Shown one piece after another: positions 6,167 through 21,299 of a stretch of 22,731 nucleotides of DNA. Position 1 is the stretch's first letter. Every line of letters starts with the position of its first letter. Under the pieces are notes generated by a model, which worked only from the letters and a program-made list of their open reading frames with translations, was not told the origin of the DNA and searched no databases. The position numbers were made by a program, and so were the translations under genes. This DNA comes from a virus: positions 1-22,731 of IMG/VR virus record IMGVR_UViG_3300010885_029422; one strand, written 5' to 3'.

Positions 6167-7885
6167 CTATACTACGTTCAAATCAGATACTACAACACCT
6201 CCATAAAACTCGGGTCTGATCATCGTCATTGCGTAACGAGTCATAATTCCCTTACGAGGTGTAAAAGTGGTAGGATCGTAGATCAATGGAGTCATGATCA
6301 ATGGAACATATGGAGAATATACAGCGCCACACTCCAAGAATTGATTACCTCTAAATCCTAATAGGATGAAGTTTTCAAGCATGTAAGGGTTTTTGTATAC
6401 TTTGTAACGGCTGTTTAAAGAACCGATCTTCTGAACACCGAATGCATATTTCATTGTATCTGCTGCGCCATCAGTATCAGCTGCGAATCCAGGAATTGAT
6501 TCCAAGATTGTTGCTACTGCTGGAGAAACTACCATGAAGTTAGCACCGCCACGTAAAGTACGTTGGTGGATGATGTTAGAAATTTTCTGCAATTTGATAC
6601 CAATAGTTTGGAACCAAGTCATTTGATTGTAGTAAACACCAGCGGTATTACTATCAAATCCAGTCTTAGCTGTATTGATTTGGTTACCAACTTTAGCAGA
6701 CCAATACTCAACTACTGGAGCATTTTGGATTAACATGTCTAAGATTTCCAAATCAATCTCCAAAGAGATGTATTCAGACAATAGACCAGTCAATTCAGCT
6801 TCAGCATCTAAGCTATGGTAAGCGTTTAAGTCTTGCGCAAATTCTGGAGTCCATTGTGCTTTCAACTTACGAGTTTTAGCAGAGATGGTTTGACTCTTCA
6901 TTTGTACGTTAACTTCTGGGATAGCGATCTGTGTAGGGCTATATGCGTTTGGTACAGACATACCTTGAGCAGCAGTTCTATCTTCGAAATCACCTCTAGC
7001 GTTAAAATCAGTTTGCTTGTTGTAGAAAACTGTCAATACGTTAGAACCAGTGATTTGATTAAAAGAAGCAGCAACTAAAGAACCAGAATATACGAAAGTA
7101 ACTGTGTTAGCAGTTGAATCGTATTTGGTAAATTGGTTCAAAGTAGTAGCTGGACTAATTAAAGATCCAGAATTTAATTCAAAAGCTCTAACACCAAGAG
7201 TATTAAAGTTAACTAATGAAGTTCCAGGAACCGTTAATTTAAATAAAGAAGTAGCAGCTAAAGTGTTGGTTCCACCTTGAGCAGCGATAGATGCGCTATA
7301 TGTACTATCAAAGTTTACATCAGCGAAAGTTACAGCAGAACCAGTAGCTACAGAAGCAGATACAGAAGCTGAGAATACGTTCAATGAATAAGCGAAAGTA
7401 CCAGCACCATATAAAGCACCAGCTGCAGCGTTACCGAAGTTAGCAGTAGCAGTACCATATACTGAACCAGTTTGACCCAATGGAGATGCAACACCGTTAG
7501 CACCACCGTATTGGAAATCTAGATAAAATACTAAACCTGCAGGCAAGTTCATTGGTTGTACGCTAACGAATTCTTTCGCTGCGATTTGACCAAAGATTTT
7601 TCTTACCAAAGGTAGAGCAACTCCAGCCCACTGTTCGCCAGTACCAGGAGTAAAAGTAGCACCGCTCGCTTGAGCAACGTTTCCGTTTGTGCCAGAAGCT
7701 TCAACAATAAGTTGTTTAGCTTGATTTTCAAGGATCATCGCCATGTTAGCGCGATCGTAGTCGTGCAAGCCTTCTAAAAGACCTGATTTACCCCATTTTT
7801 TTGCAAGACGCTGAGCAACAGTAAAAGTTGCAGCTTGTGCATTTTGGGCCGACTCGTTTAGTAATGATTGTACTAAGTTTGCCAT
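6167..7885 (-). CDS. g23: Major capsid protein gp23
   Basis: A 572-residue homologue of T4 gp23, the HK97-fold shell protein. The N-terminus SGLLEGLHDYDRANMAMILEN (34-54) and C-terminal segments YKVYKNPYMLENFILLGFRG, YSPYVPLIMTPL and RKGIMTRYAM match family landmarks. A likely gp21 cleavage site is LIVE/AS after Glu62, fitting the T4 (I/L)xE rule and close to the T4 site at Glu65. It is longer than T4 gp23 (521 aa); the extra length lies in a Ser/Thr/Ala/Gly-rich region of about residues 110-300, probably a surface insertion domain. It follows the scaffold by 35 nt and is followed by a strong terminator. Confidence 0.95.
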   Translation of the reverse strand: MANLVQSLLNESAQNAQAATFTVAQRLAKKWGKSGLLEGLHDYDRANMAMILENQAKQLIVEASGTNGNVAQASGATFTPGTGEQWAGVALPLVRKIFGQIAAKEFVSVQPMNLPAGLVFYLDFQYGGANGVASPLGQTGSVYGTATANFGNAAAGALYGAGTFAYSLNVFSASVSASVATGSAVTFADVNFDSTYSASIAAQGGTNTLAATSLFKLTVPGTSLVNFNTLGVRAFELNSGSLISPATTLNQFTKYDSTANTVTFVYSGSLVAASFNQITGSNVLTVFYNKQTDFNARGDFEDRTAAQGMSVPNAYSPTQIAIPEVNVQMKSQTISAKTRKLKAQWTPEFAQDLNAYHSLDAEAELTGLLSEYISLEIDLEILDMLIQNAPVVEYWSAKVGNQINTAKTGFDSNTAGVYYNQMTWFQTIGIKLQKISNIIHQRTLRGGANFMVVSPAVATILESIPGFAADTDGAADTMKYAFGVQKIGSLNSRYKVYKNPYMLENFILLGFRGNQFLECGAVYSPYVPLIMTPLIYDPTTFTPRKGIMTRYAMTMIRPEFYGGVVVSDLNVV

Positions 7886-7920: not shown

Positions 7921-9009
7921 TTATTTAATAATTCCTGCCAATTTCTGCATTCTTGAGATAAAAGGATCTGCCTCAGTAATGTTTTGTTTTGGCGCATAAC
8001 CCATTGGTTTTGAAGCGTAACTAAATGATTCGCTAAGTTGTTTTTTAGGCGCTGTGATTGATTCATTCAAAGTAGCAAAGATATTTTTAACTTCTTTTAC
8101 GTTTGATGCTCTATCAAATGCTCCAACAACTCTTTTCTTTTGTGATTCGTTTAAAGATTTAGATTTGAAGATCTTATTCATGTAAAGTAATTTAGCATTC
8201 AAAAGATTAACTTCTTGTAGAGAATGTCTCATCTCTTCAACAGCTTTTTTAGCCTCATCCATTTCTTTTTTATGCTTCTTTTCTTGCATTTGATTCTTCT
8301 TTTCTTCCATCTTGTACTTACCTTCTTCTAAATCTTCTTCAAGATCGTCTTCTCCTAAAATTTCGTCAAGATCAACATCAGCTTCTTCAGCATCAGTGTC
8401 ATCCATTCCTTCTTCGCCGCCAATAAATGGAGCTAAAGCTTGTTTAAGTTGACCAAATGTTAAAACGATTTCTTCATCGTCTTCACCTTCTTCAGCGTTG
8501 TCAGCATCATGATCGCTAGGACCACCCATGTTGTCTGCATCAGGCTCTTCGTGTTCATCGTCTTCCATGTCATCTTCAGCTTCTTCCATGTTTTCCATGT
8601 CATCTTCGTCAATTGAATCTTCGTCTTCTTCCATTTCAAGTTCTTCTAATTCTCCTAGAATTTCTTCTAATGTAGACTCTTCAAGATCTTCTTCAAGTTC
8701 TTCGTCAAGTCCTTCTTCTAAATCTTCGTCAAGTCCCTCTTCAAGATCTTCTTCAAGTTCTTCTTCAAGTTCTTCTTCTTTAATTGGAGCTTTTTTTACT
8801 TTTACGTTTTGCGTGTAAGCTCCGTTTTTGCTTTCTTTTTTTACTTGCTTTTCTTCAGCTTCATCTTCAGCTTCTTCTCTTAGAGATTGTTTAACTAAAG
8901 CTTCAACTTGAGGAGCAAATGTTTCTTGCAACGATGCTTTTGCATTAGCGATTGCGCTAGCTCTTAATGCTTTTGCGTCAGCGATTGCTTGTTTGTACAA
9001 GTCCTGCAT
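7921..9009 (-). CDS. g22: Prohead core scaffolding protein gp22
   Basis: A 362-residue, highly acidic scaffold protein between the prohead protease and major capsid genes, the position of T4 gene 22. Residues 1-50 are helical (MQDLYKQAIADAKALRASAI). Residues about 75-175 are an Asp/Glu-rich repeat region of LEED/LEEG units. Residues 230-290 form a Lys/Glu-rich coiled coil with EEKKNQMQEKKHKKEM. The C-terminus FISRMQKLAGIIK is typical of the family. It is longer than T4 gp22 (269 aa) because of the acidic repeats, which contain many (I/L)xE sites at which the protease could degrade it during maturation. It has its own upstream gap with promoter-like signals. Confidence 0.88.
   Translation of the reverse strand: MQDLYKQAIADAKALRASAIANAKASLQETFAPQVEALVKQSLREEAEDEAEEKQVKKESKNGAYTQNVKVKKAPIKEEELEEELEEDLEEGLDEDLEEGLDEELEEDLEESTLEEILGELEELEMEEDEDSIDEDDMENMEEAEDDMEDDEHEEPDADNMGGPSDHDADNAEEGEDDEEIVLTFGQLKQALAPFIGGEEGMDDTDAEEADVDLDEILGEDDLEEDLEEGKYKMEEKKNQMQEKKHKKEMDEAKKAVEEMRHSLQEVNLLNAKLLYMNKIFKSKSLNESQKKRVVGAFDRASNVKEVKNIFATLNESITAPKKQLSESFSYASKPMGYAPKQNITEADPFISRMQKLAGIIK
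8677..8763 (-). repeat. 60-bp tandem duplication in the acidic region of the scaffold gene
   Basis: A 27-nt string beginning CTCTTCAAGATCTTCTTCAA on the plus strand occurs at 8677-8703 and again at 8737-8763, exactly 60 bp apart, which is 20 codons. Shorter imperfect copies of CTTCTTCAAGTT continue to about 8790. On the coding strand they encode runs of Leu-Glu-Glu-Asp/Gly. The repeat number could change by slippage without a frameshift. Confidence 0.8.
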
Positions 9010-9282: not shown

Positions 9283-9918
9283 TTATTTTATGCAACAAAC
9301 TCCACTGACTGAACAGATAATATCTGATAACATTCTATTGGCTTTGTCGTACTTATCTTCTAATGCGACTGTTCTATCGAAAGATTCCTGTAAACCTCTA
9401 TTTCCAACTGGTTTCATGTACGCACCATAAGTAGATGGCGTAGAAACAAAGTCCCAGCAGATCAGGTCAAGATCATCCTCAACCTTAACAATACCTTCAC
9501 CAATAGGAGAGACTGAACCCATAGCTCTTGATGAGATCCCAACAGTTATATTTGCGATGAATAGCTCTTTTAATATATTTCCTGATGGAGTTGGTAGTAT
9601 TTCTATCTTTCCGTAAAGATCTTTACCTTGCCACCAAAGTTCTAATATATTATGACTAACGTTTTTTAAATTAATTACCGCAGTTTCTGGGTGGTCTAAT
9701 TCCCCTAATGCTCTATGTTCTGCTATTGGTCCAGCAATGTATTTTTCAACTTGTCCTTCTAAAATATCGTAAGGATAAATTCTTTTATTAGCGTTTGGCT
9801 TATCACTCGCTTGTACTTGACCAACAACTATCATGTTGCCACTTCTATTTTTAATTCCTTCATGTAAAGAAGTAATCGGGTGAAATAGTGAATGCTCTAT
9901 AAGTAATTGTTTTGCCAT
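9283..9918 (-). CDS. g21: Prohead core protease gp21
   Basis: A 211-residue serine protease, almost the length of T4 gp21 (212 aa). NANKRIYP (42-49) matches the NxNxRxYP box of prohead proteases. GELDHPE (72-78) carries the catalytic histidine His76. VGISSRAMGSV (126-136) carries the nucleophile Ser129 or Ser130. Asp156 in ICWDFVSTPS is a possible third residue. It cleaves core and shell proteins at (I/L)xE sites once the prohead is assembled. The start overlaps the upstream stop as TAATG, suggesting translational coupling with the 429-residue gene. Its own N-terminus contains LLIE at residues 5-8. Confidence 0.93.
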   Translation of the reverse strand: MAKQLLIEHSLFHPITSLHEGIKNRSGNMIVVGQVQASDKPNANKRIYPYDILEGQVEKYIAGPIAEHRALGELDHPETAVINLKNVSHNILELWWQGKDLYGKIEILPTPSGNILKELFIANITVGISSRAMGSVSPIGEGIVKVEDDLDLICWDFVSTPSTYGAYMKPVGNRGLQESFDRTVALEDKYDKANRMLSDIICSVSGVCCIK

Positions 9919-14766: not shown

Positions 14767-16368
14767 CTATATAAGCCAAGTTAAATCTTGAGAATAATCT
14801 CCTCCTGGAGCTGGTATATTCATTGACCATGGATTCTGGTTTGCAAAACTATTGGTATTATACATTCCAGCGTCAGCTGAAGTCTTGCCAATGTTGTTCA
14901 TTACAGATACAGTTAGGCTATCAGCCGCTCTTTTATATCTAATTGATGTTTCTCTTAGATACATCGCTATGGCAAAACACATTACTAAGTCATCATTGTA
15001 TCCACCCATGGCTTGTTGCTTGCCATTCTTCCATATAAATACTCTTAACTCATCCAATAGTCTAATAGACCTAAAGATAACCTCTTTATTTTCTATAAAA
15101 GATCTCATTTTCTCAATTACATTCACTCTATTTTTTGTTGATGTTGTGAATCCTGGAACTAGTGAGTTATTGCCGTTGTGAACAGCTAGATAATCTTGAA
15201 AATCAGCGCTATTATCAGCTCTATGACTGTAGTGCATATTATTATATCCACTTTCAAGGACTGATTGTATTACATCCCATCCTATATTGGCATTTTCTAT
15301 TACTAGAAGCGCTCTATTATATTTAGTTGCTATAGAAATAAGCTCATTAGCAAAATATCTTGTGTCTATCTGAGCTTTATATTCAGCTACTTGTGTTAAA
15401 GTATCAACGTCTATTACGTGAAACGCAGAATAGTCCATCCCGTCTCCTCTGGCAACGTCGGCAACTACCATATAATACTTCATTGGATCGGGATATTCCC
15501 ATACCCATAGAGCCCTATCGAGTCCCTCTCTATTAATTGGCTCCTTTACCATAGTCTCAGCATACCAAGTTAAGATATCTGGTTCGATTACTGTATTACC
15601 CGATGTTGCAAAGTCACAATCACACTCTTGAGCTGCATTTCTTACTCCTAAATCTACGTCTTGCTGCTTTCTCCATTCAGGATCTCTTTCAGGGTGTACA
15701 GTCCAGGGTAAAGATATTGGCAAAAAATTGTTTTCTTGCTTTTGAGCTTTAGAATATGCGTTATGAAACCAATTACCAACACCGTTAGGCGTAGATAATG
15801 CTATACAACCTCCTCCAGTTGCCAAAGTCATCTTAGAGGCTGTATATATAGTTTCAATATTATCAATAAACGCTGCCTCATCTATCACAAGTAGTGATAC
15901 GGCTTCAGAACGACCTGCGTCACCTGCAGCAGATACAGCTTTAATTTGAGAACCGTTACTTAATCTAAGACTAAGTTGGTTATTTGATACAGATTTTGCA
16001 ATTTTTCTCATCCAATCTGGTAAATTATCGTAAGCAAATCTTACTTTAGTTACCATGTTCTTAGCAGTTTCCTGCTTAGTTGCAATTACAAGTACGTTTT
16101 TATCCCTTTGAAATAGCATTAGCCATAAAGAATACGCAGAAACTAGAGTAGAAATACCTAGCTGACGCGACTTATTAATTATGGAATCAGGATGCTTTTG
16201 AAATAGTTTAAGTACTTTTTCTTGGAATGGATATAGATCAAAGTATTGACGTCCTCTTTGTGGATGCTGGATCATGTAATACTTCTTCATGAAATACACC
16301 GGATCAGTAGCACATTTAAGGTACTCTTCCTTTAATCTATCTTGCATGTTTATACCTTCTGCAGCCAT
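14767..16368 (-). CDS. g17: Terminase large subunit gp17
   Basis: A 533-residue packaging motor and headful nuclease. ATPase domain: a deviant Walker A KSRQLGIST (66-74), Walker B LLVIDEAAF (159-167, Asp163/Glu164) and motif III LSTPNG (191-196). Nuclease domain (RNase H fold): Asp304 in VVADVARGDGMD, Glu358 in VIENA and Asp459/Asp460 in YNDDLVM are the three acidic metal-binding positions. It ends QDLTWLI, a tail I recall in relatives. It is shorter than T4 gp17 (610 aa). The start is one base after the previous stop. No small terminase gene (gp16) is recognisable in its usual place just upstream. Confidence 0.96.
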   Translation of the reverse strand: MAAEGINMQDRLKEEYLKCATDPVYFMKKYYMIQHPQRGRQYFDLYPFQEKVLKLFQKHPDSIINKSRQLGISTLVSAYSLWLMLFQRDKNVLVIATKQETAKNMVTKVRFAYDNLPDWMRKIAKSVSNNQLSLRLSNGSQIKAVSAAGDAGRSEAVSLLVIDEAAFIDNIETIYTASKMTLATGGGCIALSTPNGVGNWFHNAYSKAQKQENNFLPISLPWTVHPERDPEWRKQQDVDLGVRNAAQECDCDFATSGNTVIEPDILTWYAETMVKEPINREGLDRALWVWEYPDPMKYYMVVADVARGDGMDYSAFHVIDVDTLTQVAEYKAQIDTRYFANELISIATKYNRALLVIENANIGWDVIQSVLESGYNNMHYSHRADNSADFQDYLAVHNGNNSLVPGFTTSTKNRVNVIEKMRSFIENKEVIFRSIRLLDELRVFIWKNGKQQAMGGYNDDLVMCFAIAMYLRETSIRYKRAADSLTVSVMNNIGKTSADAGMYNTNSFANQNPWSMNIPAPGGDYSQDLTWLI

Positions 16369-17380: not shown

Positions 17381-19228
17381 CTAGTACAATTGATTATATG
17401 TCATTGATGCGTCATAATGAACATCTTCTGTATACATTTTAATTCCTAAATGATCTAAAGCCTTTTCGTATGATATTTTAGCAAGCTCTTTTAATTTATT
17501 AATAAAATTAGTAAAGAAATCAATAATTTTTTTAAGTATATTTAAACCTTTTTCTTTTACATAATTAATTCCTTTTTGCAATATATTATCTTCTAATAAT
17601 AATTTGTTTTTAATGAGTTTATCCTCTACTAAAAGTATAGTATTAAACTCATTTATTAAACTATAAAGTTCTTTCATAGGCTGTGGCTTATAGAATTGTT
17701 GCACTGTTTTTGATATTCTTGTACCAGATGATTTAGTACCAAATTTAGGGGGACTATAAGATTCTGATACTTTTTTAGCCGCATTACTTATTGACGTTAT
17801 ATTAATTTTAGAAAAATCTAAAGAAAAAGTTAGTATTTTGTCTGCTGCGCCTTGTGATTTTTTACCAAACATTCCTTTGCCTGAAAGAGATTCTTCTATA
17901 AATACACGTTTAAAATTAGGATTTTTTTGTGCTTGTTGGAATATATTATCTACTATTTTATTTAGATCTTGCGTATTTTTATCAAATTTAAATATTAATT
18001 TTTGTAATTCCTTATCTATAATTTTTCGTAAGTCGCCTAAACCATATATTTCTCCGTCTCCGTCATATATTCTGCTTAATGTGCTACCTTCTTCTTTCGC
18101 TGTCTTTTCTAATTGATTAATTTGATCTTCTAATGCTTGTTTTATGGATTTTTTATAATCTAAAACGTCTACGCAATAATTAATTAATGCTTTTAATTGA
18201 GGCGCTGATGCGTCTAATACTCTTACTTGAGTTTCTCCATTTTTTACTGAGTAATTTACTTTATCTGTTGCGATATCTGTTTTAGATCTAGCTGATGGAA
18301 TTCCCCCGTAATTAACCCATAGTAAAGAGGTTTTAAAATTTCCTTCGCCTAAATTTTTTGCGTTATTTAATACAGGAAGTTTTTGTATGCCATTAAAATA
18401 TAATGAGCTTATATTATTACCGCCTAAATACGTGTTAAAGTATTTAGTTAAAAATTTAGAGTCTGGGCTATTTCCTCTTAAAAATTCTTTAAGAGAAGCT
18501 TCATTTTTTATCTTTTGTTTTAAATTAATTAAAATCTCTAAAACTTTTTCCGCTTCTGTTGAACCTCCTGTATTAGCTTCTTTTAATAATAATTGTAATA
18601 TGCTAACTTTATTTACTGATCCTTGATACGGTTTAAATAATTCATGCATAATATATTCTTTTAATGATTCTTCTCCTCCTGTCTGTTCTGCTCCTGTTTC
18701 TTTAGGGGCTTCATTTCCTTCAGTTTCTCCGCCTCCAATCTCACTTTCTCCTTCTGGTCTAGTTGATTCTTCTGCGCCTTCTGGCCCTTTTGTTTTTAAG
18801 GGCGCTCCAAACTTTAACAGTCTAGTTATAGCATTCATCGCCCTTTCTTTAATACCAATATTGTCTAAATAGAATCTTTTTCCTGCTATATTAGCTTCGT
18901 ATACATGAGAATCAGTTTCATTTGTGCCAGCAATTTTCTTTCCCATGTAGGTCATAAAAAAATATTGACCATTATGCAAAACAATTTTAAATGTAGTAGG
19001 TTTAGGCGCAACAAGAAATATAGCTGTTAGATACTGCTTATAATCTTTGCTCATCAATTCTGTTAATGCTACATTGAGTCCTTCGTACTTTCGAATAATA
19101 AATCCCATTGGATCTTCTTCAAATCCTTCAGGTTTGTCAGGTTTTTGATTTGGTTGCTTTTGCGGATTATTTGGATCAGCATCTGCTTCCAATAAAATTT
19201 CTAGTATTCTATTATTTTGTACTATCAT
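17381..19228 (-). CDS. Large conserved T4-like phage protein, possible nuclease-like core (615 aa)
   Basis: A 615-residue multi-region protein. Residues 5-15 are an N-terminal helix NRILEILLEAD with ILE and LLE sites. Residues 40-140 look like a small alpha/beta domain. Residues 145-190 are a Glu/Gly-rich linker (EESTRPEGESEIGGGETEG). Residues 300-350 contain SKTDI (Asp318) and, eleven residues on, YSVK (Lys329), a spacing seen in PD-(D/E)xK-type nucleases. Residues 444-456 (FIEESLSGKGMFG) match a box I recall from large uncharacterised T4-like cyanophage proteins. Residues 553-597 form amphipathic helices (INYVKEKGLNILKKIIDFF). No activity is established. It lies 2 nt after the endolysin gene. 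It may be a virion-internal protein. Confidence 0.55.
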   Translation of the reverse strand: MIVQNNRILEILLEADADPNNPQKQPNQKPDKPEGFEEDPMGFIIRKYEGLNVALTELMSKDYKQYLTAIFLVAPKPTTFKIVLHNGQYFFMTYMGKKIAGTNETDSHVYEANIAGKRFYLDNIGIKERAMNAITRLLKFGAPLKTKGPEGAEESTRPEGESEIGGGETEGNEAPKETGAEQTGGEESLKEYIMHELFKPYQGSVNKVSILQLLLKEANTGGSTEAEKVLEILINLKQKIKNEASLKEFLRGNSPDSKFLTKYFNTYLGGNNISSLYFNGIQKLPVLNNAKNLGEGNFKTSLLWVNYGGIPSARSKTDIATDKVNYSVKNGETQVRVLDASAPQLKALINYCVDVLDYKKSIKQALEDQINQLEKTAKEEGSTLSRIYDGDGEIYGLGDLRKIIDKELQKLIFKFDKNTQDLNKIVDNIFQQAQKNPNFKRVFIEESLSGKGMFGKKSQGAADKILTFSLDFSKINITSISNAAKKVSESYSPPKFGTKSSGTRISKTVQQFYKPQPMKELYSLINEFNTILLVEDKLIKNKLLLEDNILQKGINYVKEKGLNILKKIIDFFTNFINKLKELAKISYEKALDHLGIKMYTEDVHYDASMTYNQLY

Positions 19229-19230
19229 GA

Positions 19231-19830
19231 TTATGCTAATAAGCTATAAAATTCTTTAAAATGCTTAATACGATCTTCTAAACCTATAGTTCCACCATTT
19301 ACACGTTTAGTAATAGAAGTTACCACTGCATCAGTTGCGCCTCCATCTGCTATAGTATGCAATTTGTTTTTATTAAAAAACCATGCTGCTGATGCTAATG
19401 GATATTTAGTAGCTACTAATGCTGGATCAGCGTTAACGTCTTCTTTAACAGATTTAAAAAACGCTTGATAATTAGTCTTTCCAGTCAATTGAATGAATCC
19501 TCTACCGCAGTATTTTGCTCCATCTCCAGAAGCTTCATCTCCATTACCCATTCTATTTGAATACACTACATTGGCAATTTTTTCTGGCTTTCTTTCGTAC
19601 AATTTTGCTTTTGCTTCAGTAGGAAAATACTTTTTAAATATTCCCATTAAGCCTTTTGCAGAATAATTTAAATTTTCTTTGGTCAATTTAAATCCACCTG
19701 ATTCGTGTCCGCATTGCGACAAGAAATGTGCTAATCTTAAAGCTGTATTAATTTCAAACTTCTCCTGTACTTCAGGAATCTGCGCAATAACGCTGTCAGG
19801 AACGTGCCCTTTAAGCTTTGATAAATCCAT
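19231..19830 (-). CDS. GH19-type endolysin (chitinase/muramidase-like)
   Basis: A 199-residue glycoside hydrolase family 19 enzyme that would cut the host cell wall. AHFLSQCGHESGGF (34-47) carries the catalytic acid Glu43; Glu52 in TKENLNY is the probable second acid. NRMGNGDEASGDGAKYCGRG (92-111) followed by FIQLTGKTNY is the substrate-cleft signature. The short N-terminal part (LSKLKGHVPDSVIAQIPEVQ) is usual in phage versions. No signal peptide is present, so release to the periplasm would need a holin, which is not recognisable nearby. It starts one base after the stop of the zinc-ribbon gene. Confidence 0.88.
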   Translation of the reverse strand: MDLSKLKGHVPDSVIAQIPEVQEKFEINTALRLAHFLSQCGHESGGFKLTKENLNYSAKGLMGIFKKYFPTEAKAKLYERKPEKIANVVYSNRMGNGDEASGDGAKYCGRGFIQLTGKTNYQAFFKSVKEDVNADPALVATKYPLASAAWFFNKNKLHTIADGGATDAVVTSITKRVNGGTIGLEDRIKHFKEFYSLLA

Positions 19831-19831
19831 A

Positions 19832-20488
19832 TTATTTATGCTTTATATTTTTTGCGAACTGAGCCATGTGTCTTAAATGAGGATTTTCGCTATGTGTTGC
19901 CTTATTTAGTTTGGCCGCTGGTATTTTTTTATCTTTTGCAACATGAAGTGCAGTATGTAAATCTCCTTTATGAGCAGGATTTATTGCTTTTTGAATAAAT
20001 TTAGCTGGTTTCTTTTTAGTTTCCATCATTCTAGATAAACTCATATCTTCTTCAGGCTCTTCATCTCCTTGTTCATCTTCAAAATAGAAACCGTCATTTG
20101 CTTGTTCGATATAGGTTTCTGATTTTGTAATATGATCTGCTACCCAAGCTGGAACTTCTCTTTCTTCTGTTCCTAATTTAGATAACAATTCTGTAGCAGA
20201 TTTAATGATGGTTTCAAGGTTTTTTTGCGCCATGAATACTTCGTGTTTTTCTTCTTCTAGATCTTGTGTTTCTTGCATATATCCACACTCTTTACACATT
20301 TCGTCTTCATACATCATAGGATATTTGCAATTTTCACAGAAATATTCATTTTCTTCAGAATGAGGTTCGTATGCTTTCATTCCTATTCGCACATCATTTT
20401 CTCCACCATTAATACGGTTTTTAATTGGTAATTGAGGACGTCCAAATTCTTTAAGAAGAGCCAATTTTAATTTTGTACTATTTTTCAT
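19832..20488 (-). CDS. Zinc-ribbon protein with phage C-terminal IQKA-HKGDLHTAL module (218 aa)
   Basis: Residues 3-15 form a short amphipathic helix ending LLKEF. A four-cysteine zinc ribbon follows (Cys51, Cys54, Cys65, Cys68; CENCKYPMMYEDEMCKECGY). Residues about 85-135 are helical, including EVPAWVADHITKSETYIEQA, a box seen in several phage proteins. Residues 160-218 hold KFIQKAINPAHKGDLHTALH and PHLRHMAQFAKNI, a basic module I recall at the ends of many T4-like proteins. A structural or nucleic-acid-binding role is likely; none is proven. The ATG lies 14 nt after an ATATTTATA motif and the stop is one base from the endolysin start. Confidence 0.58.
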   Translation of the reverse strand: MKNSTKLKLALLKEFGRPQLPIKNRINGGENDVRIGMKAYEPHSEENEYFCENCKYPMMYEDEMCKECGYMQETQDLEEEKHEVFMAQKNLETIIKSATELLSKLGTEEREVPAWVADHITKSETYIEQANDGFYFEDEQGDEEPEEDMSLSRMMETKKKPAKFIQKAINPAHKGDLHTALHVAKDKKIPAAKLNKATHSENPHLRHMAQFAKNIKHK

Positions 20489-20502
20489 GCTTATTATATT
20501 GA

Positions 20503-20511
20503 TATAAATAT
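20503..20511 (-). promoter_or_regulatory. ATATTTATA motif before the zinc-ribbon/endolysin genes
   Basis: Exact ATATTTATA on the minus strand, ending 14 nt before the ATG at 20488 and lying just after the stop of the preceding gene. Spacing equals that at 17074 and 17338. Candidate promoter for the zinc-ribbon, endolysin and 615-residue genes. Confidence 0.45.
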
Positions 20512-20514
20512 TAT

Positions 20515-21018
20515 CTATTCTTTATTTTTAGATTTACTTGCTCTTTTCCAAAGACCTTTATCAGCTTTTCTTGCTCCTCCTTTACCAGTTACAAAAGAAT
20601 TTACTCTTGCCATTGCCCATTGATGTTGAGTCACTCCCGGTCTATGACCTGTTTTAAAAGCAGCTAATCCTTTATCGTATACTCCGCGTAAAATAGTCTT
20701 AGATATACCGGTAGCCTTAGCTTTATTCGACAAAGCTTTATCTTCATCTCCTTCATTAACGCTTTTTCCAAATCTTTTTTCGTAAGCTGTAGTTGCTGTG
20801 CTTTTTTTAGTGGGATAAGGTTTCTTTTTTGCTTTATCCGAATAGTCTGCATCCCATTTTTCGTAAGCTGCAGGATCATTGTCGCTTAATTTAGCCGCTT
20901 TATCTATATCTTTTTTCATCGCAGTCTTATTTTTAGTAAGATATGCTTTATTTAGTTTTCTACCCTCAGGAGTTCTTTCCTCTCCTAATACCTCTTTTAA
21001 AATAGATAATAATTTCAT
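20515..21018 (-). CDS. Basic modular protein with GHRPG-TQHQWAMARVNSF domain (167 aa)
   Basis: Residues 1-13 are MKLLSILKEVLGE, a short amphipathic helix with LKE and LGE, both fitting the gp21 cleavage rule. Residues 67-85 hold PYPTKKSTATTAYEKRFGK, a recurrent phage box. Residues 95-157 hold ALSNKAKATGISKTILRGVY, then GLAAFKTGHRPGVTQHQWAM and ARVNSFVTGKG. This domain is widespread in phages (I recall it as DUF5824, not checked) and has no known activity. The protein is strongly basic. The start overlaps the upstream stop as TAATG. Being internal to the capsid or DNA-bound would fit charge and context; this is inference. Confidence 0.62.
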   Translation of the reverse strand: MKLLSILKEVLGEERTPEGRKLNKAYLTKNKTAMKKDIDKAAKLSDNDPAAYEKWDADYSDKAKKKPYPTKKSTATTAYEKRFGKSVNEGDEDKALSNKAKATGISKTILRGVYDKGLAAFKTGHRPGVTQHQWAMARVNSFVTGKGGARKADKGLWKRASKSKNKE

Positions 21019-21299
21019 TACTTAATATTTTTTCCTGCTTTAACTGCTTGTTTATACGCTTTTGATCCTTTTTTTGCTGGTGCTTCACCTCTAGCTTTTT
21101 TTGCTCTAATGTTTGCCCATAAACCTAGTTTCTCTTCATTTTTAGGTAAAAATTCACCTGTTTTTGGAGAATTATCATGACCGCATTTATGACAAATGAA
21201 AGGATCTTTACCTCCATCTGATAAACTCCAAGTCCAACCGCAATTTTGGCATGTAACTTTTCCTAAAATTTCCTTTAATATATTAGTTAACTTTACCAT
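21018..21299 (-). CDS. Zinc-ribbon protein with WANIRAKKARGE module (93 aa)
   Basis: Residues 1-13 are MVKLTNILKEILG, closely similar to the N-terminus of the next gene. A zinc ribbon follows: Cys17, Cys20, Cys36, Cys39 (CQNCGWTWSLSDGGKDPFIC, then HKCGHD). Residues 59-93 are LGLWANIRAKKARGEAPAKK and a basic end; the WANIxAKxxRGExPAK box recurs in phage proteins. The ATG overlaps the end of the upstream gene by 7 nt, and the stop overlaps the next start as TAATG. Function unknown; nucleic-acid or protein binding through the ribbon is the usual role of such folds. Confidence 0.62.
   Translation of the reverse strand: MVKLTNILKEILGKVTCQNCGWTWSLSDGGKDPFICHKCGHDNSPKTGEFLPKNEEKLGLWANIRAKKARGEAPAKKGSKAYKQAVKAGKNIK

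Follow-up and report, generated by a model that had tools for sequence, protein, structure and literature searches.

The question raised by the 22.7-kb virus contig analyzed here (IMG/VR virus record IMGVR_UViG_3300010885_029422, positions 1 to 22,731; hereafter the window) is whether a group of otherwise unrelated proteins, of 93, 167, 615 and 218 residues, are marked by their first residues for entry into the phage head. An earlier note on this DNA had pointed out that each of the four begins with a short helix ending in an (I/L)xE site, and had likened these starts to the capsid-targeting peptide of T4 internal proteins. All four N-termini are indeed present at the genes named, on the minus strand; those of the 615-residue protein (gene 17381-19228, minus strand) and the 218-residue protein (gene 19832-20488, minus strand) read MIVQNNRILEILLEA and MKNSTKLKLALLKEF, respectively. 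The four candidate genes lie directly upstream of the terminase gene in transcription order, and a comparable gene order is observed in relatives. Judged from sequence comparison, these N-termini are very probably T4-type capsid-targeting and cleavage tags within a modular cargo system, the members of which would be packaged, cleaved and injected. This reading is the best supported because the T4 register is reproduced exactly, an S77 protease is encoded, the major capsid protein (MCP) carries a site of the same type, tagged genes are enriched near the protease gene, and tags precede known enzyme folds; the same evidence sustains the modular interpretation offered in the earlier note.

The T4 register at protein starts

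As first worded, the (I/L)xE site rule proved too weak to carry this argument: a bare (I/L)xE occurs near the start of 11 of the 24 window genes compared with 4.0 expected, and was dropped as evidence, being too common. A stricter form requiring a second hydrophobic residue is enriched, with seven of the 24 genes passing versus 1.0 expected (Poisson p = 8e-5), among them the genes encoding the MCP and the protease. A fifth example proposed at the outset, QLKEGKIAES of a 429-residue protein, was rejected as a cleavage tag, since the site is not conserved in homologues, which read GKITES, GEISRE, GKTTRE and GKMSRD.

The commonness of the bare rule, with 4 of 24 window genes expected, is what favors the view that the likeness is a matter of chance or composition, that is, of helix-forming K, L, I and E residues near the starts of AT-rich genes. 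For the sample against which this view was judged, genes were called in the window, in nine phage genomes or contigs (one of 50 kb, the others larger than 130 kb) and in 80 IMG/VR loci selected by capsid; proteins were clustered into families by their bodies, the first 22 residues having been removed, and families were counted. The T4 register, phi4-x-x-phi7-phi8-x-E10 (phi, hydrophobic), beginning exactly at residue 4, is found at the protein start in 25 of 1051 families of relatives, as compared with 4.5-5.1 +/- 2.0 for shuffled N-termini and approximately 4.8 at each interior offset. A stricter, MIKL-type pattern, M..K(L/F)xx(I/L)(L/I/M)xE, is found in 16 families versus 0.2 after shuffling, and at none of 14,057 internal methionines. 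Every tag class is absent from the 410 families of crAss-like phages and Cellulophaga phage phi4:1, which are without the S77 protease where tested. With shuffled N-termini, internal methionine sites, interior offsets and AT-rich crAss-like phages yielding far fewer matches or none, chance is refuted for the tag class as a whole, and next to no weight is left for it as a general account. The earlier note had proposed comparing related genomes with shuffled or non-head genes, and the outcome is in its favor, both in the 25 families set against 4.5-5.1 and in the higher density of tagged genes near the protease described below.

Length and position follow the T4 type as well: besides the 25 families with an exact match, the tag of the 93-residue protein is exact, that of the 167-residue protein is one residue shorter, and that of the 615-residue protein ends at E14. 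In the commonest tag type, Glu occupies the predicted cleavage position in 100 of 158 N-termini (63%), counted as distinct starts rather than families in a set that includes zinc-ribbon-selected loci, versus 11% of matched interior look-alikes; Glu is selected at this position. No families in this data set carry the pattern designated class 'F' (KLFExFxxE). Among homologues of the 167-residue protein the start is variable yet still tag-like, and the ribbon of the 93-residue protein is found behind several differing N-termini in other phages.

The same scan applied to the T4 genome recovers, among its matches, starts that we take to be those of IPII, IPIII, Alt and gp24. T4 gp61.1 (18966-19130, 54 aa, hypothetical) starts MKTFKEFIKED, close to the capsid-targeting sequence of the internal proteins, and is possibly an unrecognised T4 internal protein.

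The head module and the S77 protease

The minus strand of the window holds a T4-type head module (Table 1), in which the portal gene is also included. By capsid, the closest isolates include Flavobacterium phage immuto, Microcystis phage Mel-JY01 and Rhodothermus phage RM378. A gp21-type S77 prohead protease is encoded with the head genes both in the window and in relatives, being present in all 12 of the relatives' contigs that are 100 kb or longer. In ten S77 genomes, 63 of 2218 genes are tagged, as compared with 0 of 365 in the genomes of the crAss-like phages and phi4:1 (p = 1.3e-4), or 0 of 756 once two GC-rich S77-negative contigs join the latter set. Furthermore, tagged genes are four-fold denser near the protease gene, with 33 of 467 genes tagged within 25 kb versus 30 of 1751 elsewhere. 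In addition to its tag-like start, the MCP carries a predicted propeptide site, QLIVE62 followed by A, at a gp23-like position, and E62 is invariant across 64 homologues.

Table 1. Features of the window bearing on the proposed tags, with the basis of each assignment
Feature	Position	Strand	Basis
93-aa protein tag MVKLTNILKE, then ILGK	21270..21299	-	exact T4 register, E10
93-aa zinc-ribbon cargo protein (CQNCGWTW...CHKCGHDN), predicted	21018..21299	-	weak Pfam zinc-ribbon matches
167-aa protein tag MKLLSILKE, then VLGE	20992..21018	-	E9, one residue shorter than T4 register
167-aa predicted cargo protein, DUF5824 (PF19141)	20515..21018	-	Pfam E=1.6e-18
218-aa protein tag-like start MKNSTKLKLALLKE, then FGRP	20447..20488	-	plausible; outside T4 register
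218-aa protein, CxxC...CxxC zinc-ribbon-like segment, probable cargo	19832..20488	-	sequence
615-aa protein tag MIVQNNRILEILLE, then ADAD	19187..19228	-	E14; conserved in homologues
615-aa protein, conserved trunk (~residues 33-150)	18779..19132	-	65 homologues form one trunk cluster
615-aa protein, second, internal tag-like helix SILQLLLKE, then A, at payload start	18578..18604	-	tag-like helix in 60/65 homologues
615-aa protein, exchangeable payload, putative PD-(D/E)XK-like nuclease, divergent member of modelled cluster	17381..18577	-	homology
Terminase-like protein	14767-16368	-	named by gene order (adjoins portal, as in annotated relatives), not by profile search
S77 prohead protease (gp21 type)	9283..9918	-	PF03420 E=4.5e-27; PHROG head maturation protease
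S77 protease start MAKQLLIE, then H	9283..9918 (gene)	-	sequence
Scaffold/core protein	7921..9009	-	position, immediately upstream of MCP gene
Scaffold C-terminus FISRMQKLAGIIK	7921..7962	-	motif equals class-B N-terminal cargo tags of relatives
Major capsid protein (gp23 type)	6167..7885	-	homology
MCP tag-like start MANLVQSLLNE, then S	7853..7885	-	E11 in 63/64 homologues

Within the cargo cluster, a GH19 chitinase-type endolysin (19231-19830) carries no tag and serves as an internal negative control. Another recurrent start, M(R/K)xI(I/V)TESQLxKI(I/V)E, is found on the zinc-ribbon proteins of L096, L098, L105, L112, L136, L140 and others; S77 was not found in contigs of the L096 type, all of which are fragments shorter than 100 kb.

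Tag classes, predicted cargo and an exchangeable payload

When N-terminal 25-mers were compared without supervision across genes whose bodies are unrelated, 41 pairs reached a BLOSUM score of at least 50, as against 2 among interior segments and 2 among C-terminal ones; part of the excess consists of Sec/lipoprotein signal peptides and some divergent homologues. The non-secretory clusters are typified by RMQKLAGI (10 genes, 10 families), FDLKKFLVENKLT (5 genes, 5 families) and MKKSQLRxIIKEAL (3 genes, 3 families), together with pairs of the form MIKLxDLLxE; like tags are thus borne by proteins with unrelated bodies. There is no support for tag cassettes having been duplicated recently at the DNA level, as the tags use differing synonymous codons and lie behind unrelated upstream sequence; the difference in codons indicates that the peptide itself is selected. 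Among isolate phages, tblastn detected classes B and D in immuto phages only, and tagged-gene content varies between relatives. In Flavobacterium phage immuto (MW353176), candidate tagged proteins are QQO92101 (NT5C-like; ...ADLLLE, then ESDF), QQO92105 (class B; ...AGIITE, then SQFN), QQO92096 (class D; ...KKFLVE, then NKLT) and QQO92095 (MISIYNILKE, then VISP).

One of these classes would link the cargo to the scaffold. The scaffold C-terminus, approximately ExDxFVxR(M/W)QKLAGI in nearly every scaffold listed from relatives, reappears as the core of the N-terminal tag of class B, MKQxLNEIKRMQKLAGIIxE, which is found on 12-15 unrelated families, and this likeness suggests that class-B cargo enters by imitating the capsid- or core-binding end of the scaffold. 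On its own, an amphipathic helix would be compatible with many roles, and the peptides might accordingly be envisaged as localisation or docking helices acting apart from the head, at a membrane, a replication compartment or a protein complex, with LxE incidental. Such a role is rendered most improbable by the exact T4 register, the selection of Glu at the cleavage position, the absence of tags from phages without S77, and the motif held in common with the scaffold C-terminus.

The predicted cargo itself is diverse. Tagged proteins with domains above the Pfam curated cut-off include Fe/Mn superoxide dismutase (SOD), LysM-lysozyme and zeta-type kinases, while a 5'-nucleotidase, a Tpt1/KptA-like domain and a polyvalent-protein kinase fall below it; zinc ribbons are also represented. 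The best solved structure for one of the SODs begins to align at residue 13, directly past MKLMSILTE and the following A. Among SODs in S77 contigs, the tag stands at the start in L469, L471, L479 and L493 and immediately ahead of the SOD domain in L477, while the SOD of L470 is part of a longer fusion; by comparison, the SODs of two large contigs without S77 (167 and 266 kb) are enzyme from the first residues, untagged. The same four contigs and L109:8570-9208 encode phage SODs with a T4-like tag directly ahead of the enzyme, and the tagged SOD is probably virion-borne.

Several further tagged or tag-like proteins were noted in passing. Two MIKLxxL-tagged paralogues with RVWHxT motifs (L317:10276-10926 and L317:12056-12718, Mel-JY01) resemble, by eye, ADP-ribosyltransferase-like proteins (cf. 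T4 Alt); the one paralogue tested gave no Pfam match. Large proteins starting LTESDLxRIV or LTESQI are encoded at L104:11567-12706 and L149:560-1804, one of them with weak ArdC/IrrE-like domains.

The 615-residue protein adds a second level of modularity. Across 65 homologues, the architecture consists of a tag, a trunk, a Gly/Glu-rich linker, in 60 of the 65 a second tag-like helix, and a payload; the payloads fall into seven clusters, whereas the trunks form one. Representatives of five of the seven payload clusters share (S/T)D-phi-x-phi...phi-S-x-K, for which 0.07 is expected by chance, and the conserved D...(E/Q/N/S)xK catalytic motif of PD-(D/E)XK enzymes is present. In the window's own payload cluster (17 aligned sequences, window included), E13, D97, S106 and K108 are invariant, and the window payload is among the most divergent members (23% to the reference). 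An AlphaFold (AF2) model of the payload of a homologue, L421, rather than of the window payload, is fair (predicted local distance difference test, pLDDT, 76.7); its top three Foldseek matches in the PDB are HinP1I, HinP1I and MspI, all marginal (E at least 0.014, template-modelling score ~0.3, probability 0.77-0.89). Modelling of the whole 615-residue protein with mixed payloads was unusable (pLDDT 39). At the level of sequence profiles, no match of the payload to a known nuclease family was obtained: Pfam searches of ten homologues returned no nuclease family, and a payload profile found no match among PDB sequences. On our interpretation the payloads are diverged nucleases of a PD-(D/E)XK-like type, predicted to be active as such, with the window payload assigned by homology. 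Proteins of 148-192 aa that contain the trunk motif and are without a payload occur in L093, L117, L125, L126, L133 and others, many with starts resembling M(T/A)xxELxxKI; these short trunk-like proteins stand alone in other phages.

The nature of the cargo also bears on whether tagged proteins ever leave the head. Were they placed in the prohead core and cleaved there as structural or assembly components only, and not as injected effectors, it would be natural for tagged genes to adjoin head genes and for the MCP and protease to have similar starts, and T4 core proteins are cut by a like protease (PMC5694885). SOD, zeta-type kinases, a nucleotidase, a Tpt1/KptA-like domain and nuclease-like payloads are, however, implausible as structural parts, and cargo content varies between relatives, such that a purely structural role is considered unlikely.

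A proposed loading system and its known counterparts

Not every observation fits a T4-type system of targeting and cleavage tags, and the following weigh against it. Firstly, the S77-positive genome G007 (182 kb) contains zero tags as defined by regular expression, so tag usage evidently varies. Secondly, the S77-negative comparison genomes differ in more than the absence of S77, and the two large S77-negative SOD contigs are 64% GC. Thirdly, a Lysozyme-LysM protein (L109:10921-11577) is tagged MIRLSNILNE, then S, and would be an unexpected head cargo. Lastly, the case for the tag of the 218-residue protein is weak because its tag-like start is found in close relatives only (three); the tag is plausible, and chance may still account for this one protein.

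Under the favored reading of the N-termini as capsid-targeting and cleavage tags, the tag would bind the prohead core (or inner shell) during head assembly and bring unrelated cargo inside, the S77 protease of the same head module would cut after phi-x-E and free the cargo, and the freed cargo would be ejected together with the DNA upon infection. The tags would thereby act as a modular code, in which several classes are joined to many unrelated enzymes, and in the 615-residue protein cleavage at the second tag-like linker site would release the PD-(D/E)XK-like payload in the head. As far as sequence can tell, the tag system is recurrent in uncultivated, T4-related phages, including many water-sample relatives, and these phages probably carry and inject, with their DNA, a changeable enzyme set that includes interchangeable nuclease-like domains. 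A fuller picture, to which about even chances are given, is that of a multi-class cargo-loading code in which one class mimics the C-terminal helix of the scaffold, and in which the 615-residue family is a capsid-delivered polymorphic effector, with one loading trunk and protease-releasable, exchangeable nuclease payloads, like polymorphic toxins.

If so, a phenomenon familiar from T4 and a small number of other cases can be read off the sequence: virion-borne, injected proteins could be identified among the products of many unannotated phage genes, and time-zero enzyme sets could be listed. Scaffold mimicry, if true, would show the route of cargo into proheads, and exchangeable nuclease-like payloads, if true, would amount to a modular armament injected to attack the host or competitors, or to a means of suppressing defence. 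In many phages, the tags could also be put to use as handles by which proteins are loaded for packaging. A literature search found no paper describing this tag system, which is not proof of novelty.

Parallels to parts of the system can be drawn with several known ones. HinP1I and MspI, of the PD-(D/E)XK type, are the best structural matches of the L421 payload model and share its D...xxK active-site layout; the match is weak, however, and here the payload sits in a capsid cargo protein and has S in SxK. In the DarB/Dar cargo of phage P1, an N-terminal packaging signal similarly takes large proteins into the head, 30 residues of DarB being sufficient for a reporter (PMC9024508), but the protease and capsid system are different, the signal is longer, and a multi-class tag code is not described there. 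The phiKZ-like phages and SPN3US likewise have a diverged gp21-type protease cutting after Glu and many inner-head proteins that are ejected (PMC5694885); their propeptides often exceed 100 residues, whereas the tags described here are short.

The closest counterpart is the capsid-targeting sequence of T4 (the propeptides of IPI-III, Alt and gp24) and its protease gp21. In T4, residues 4 and 7 are important for targeting and residues 8 and 10 for processing, and the start of gp21 fits its own cleavage rule at LIE-9 (PMC9026906). In both systems the signal is N-terminal, of about 10 residues, with phi4, phi7, phi8 and E10 and a phi-x-E end, is borne by unrelated proteins, and is accompanied by an S77 protease in the head module; T4 MKTYQEFIAE and MVKLTNILKE of the window are equal in length and register. 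They differ in that the consensus here is M-I/K-K-L-x-x-I/L-L-x-E, with several tag classes, and in that the hosts are probably Bacteroidota. New relative to T4 are the SOD and zeta-type kinase enzymes, the internal second tag of the 615-residue family, and a tag class matching the scaffold C-terminus.

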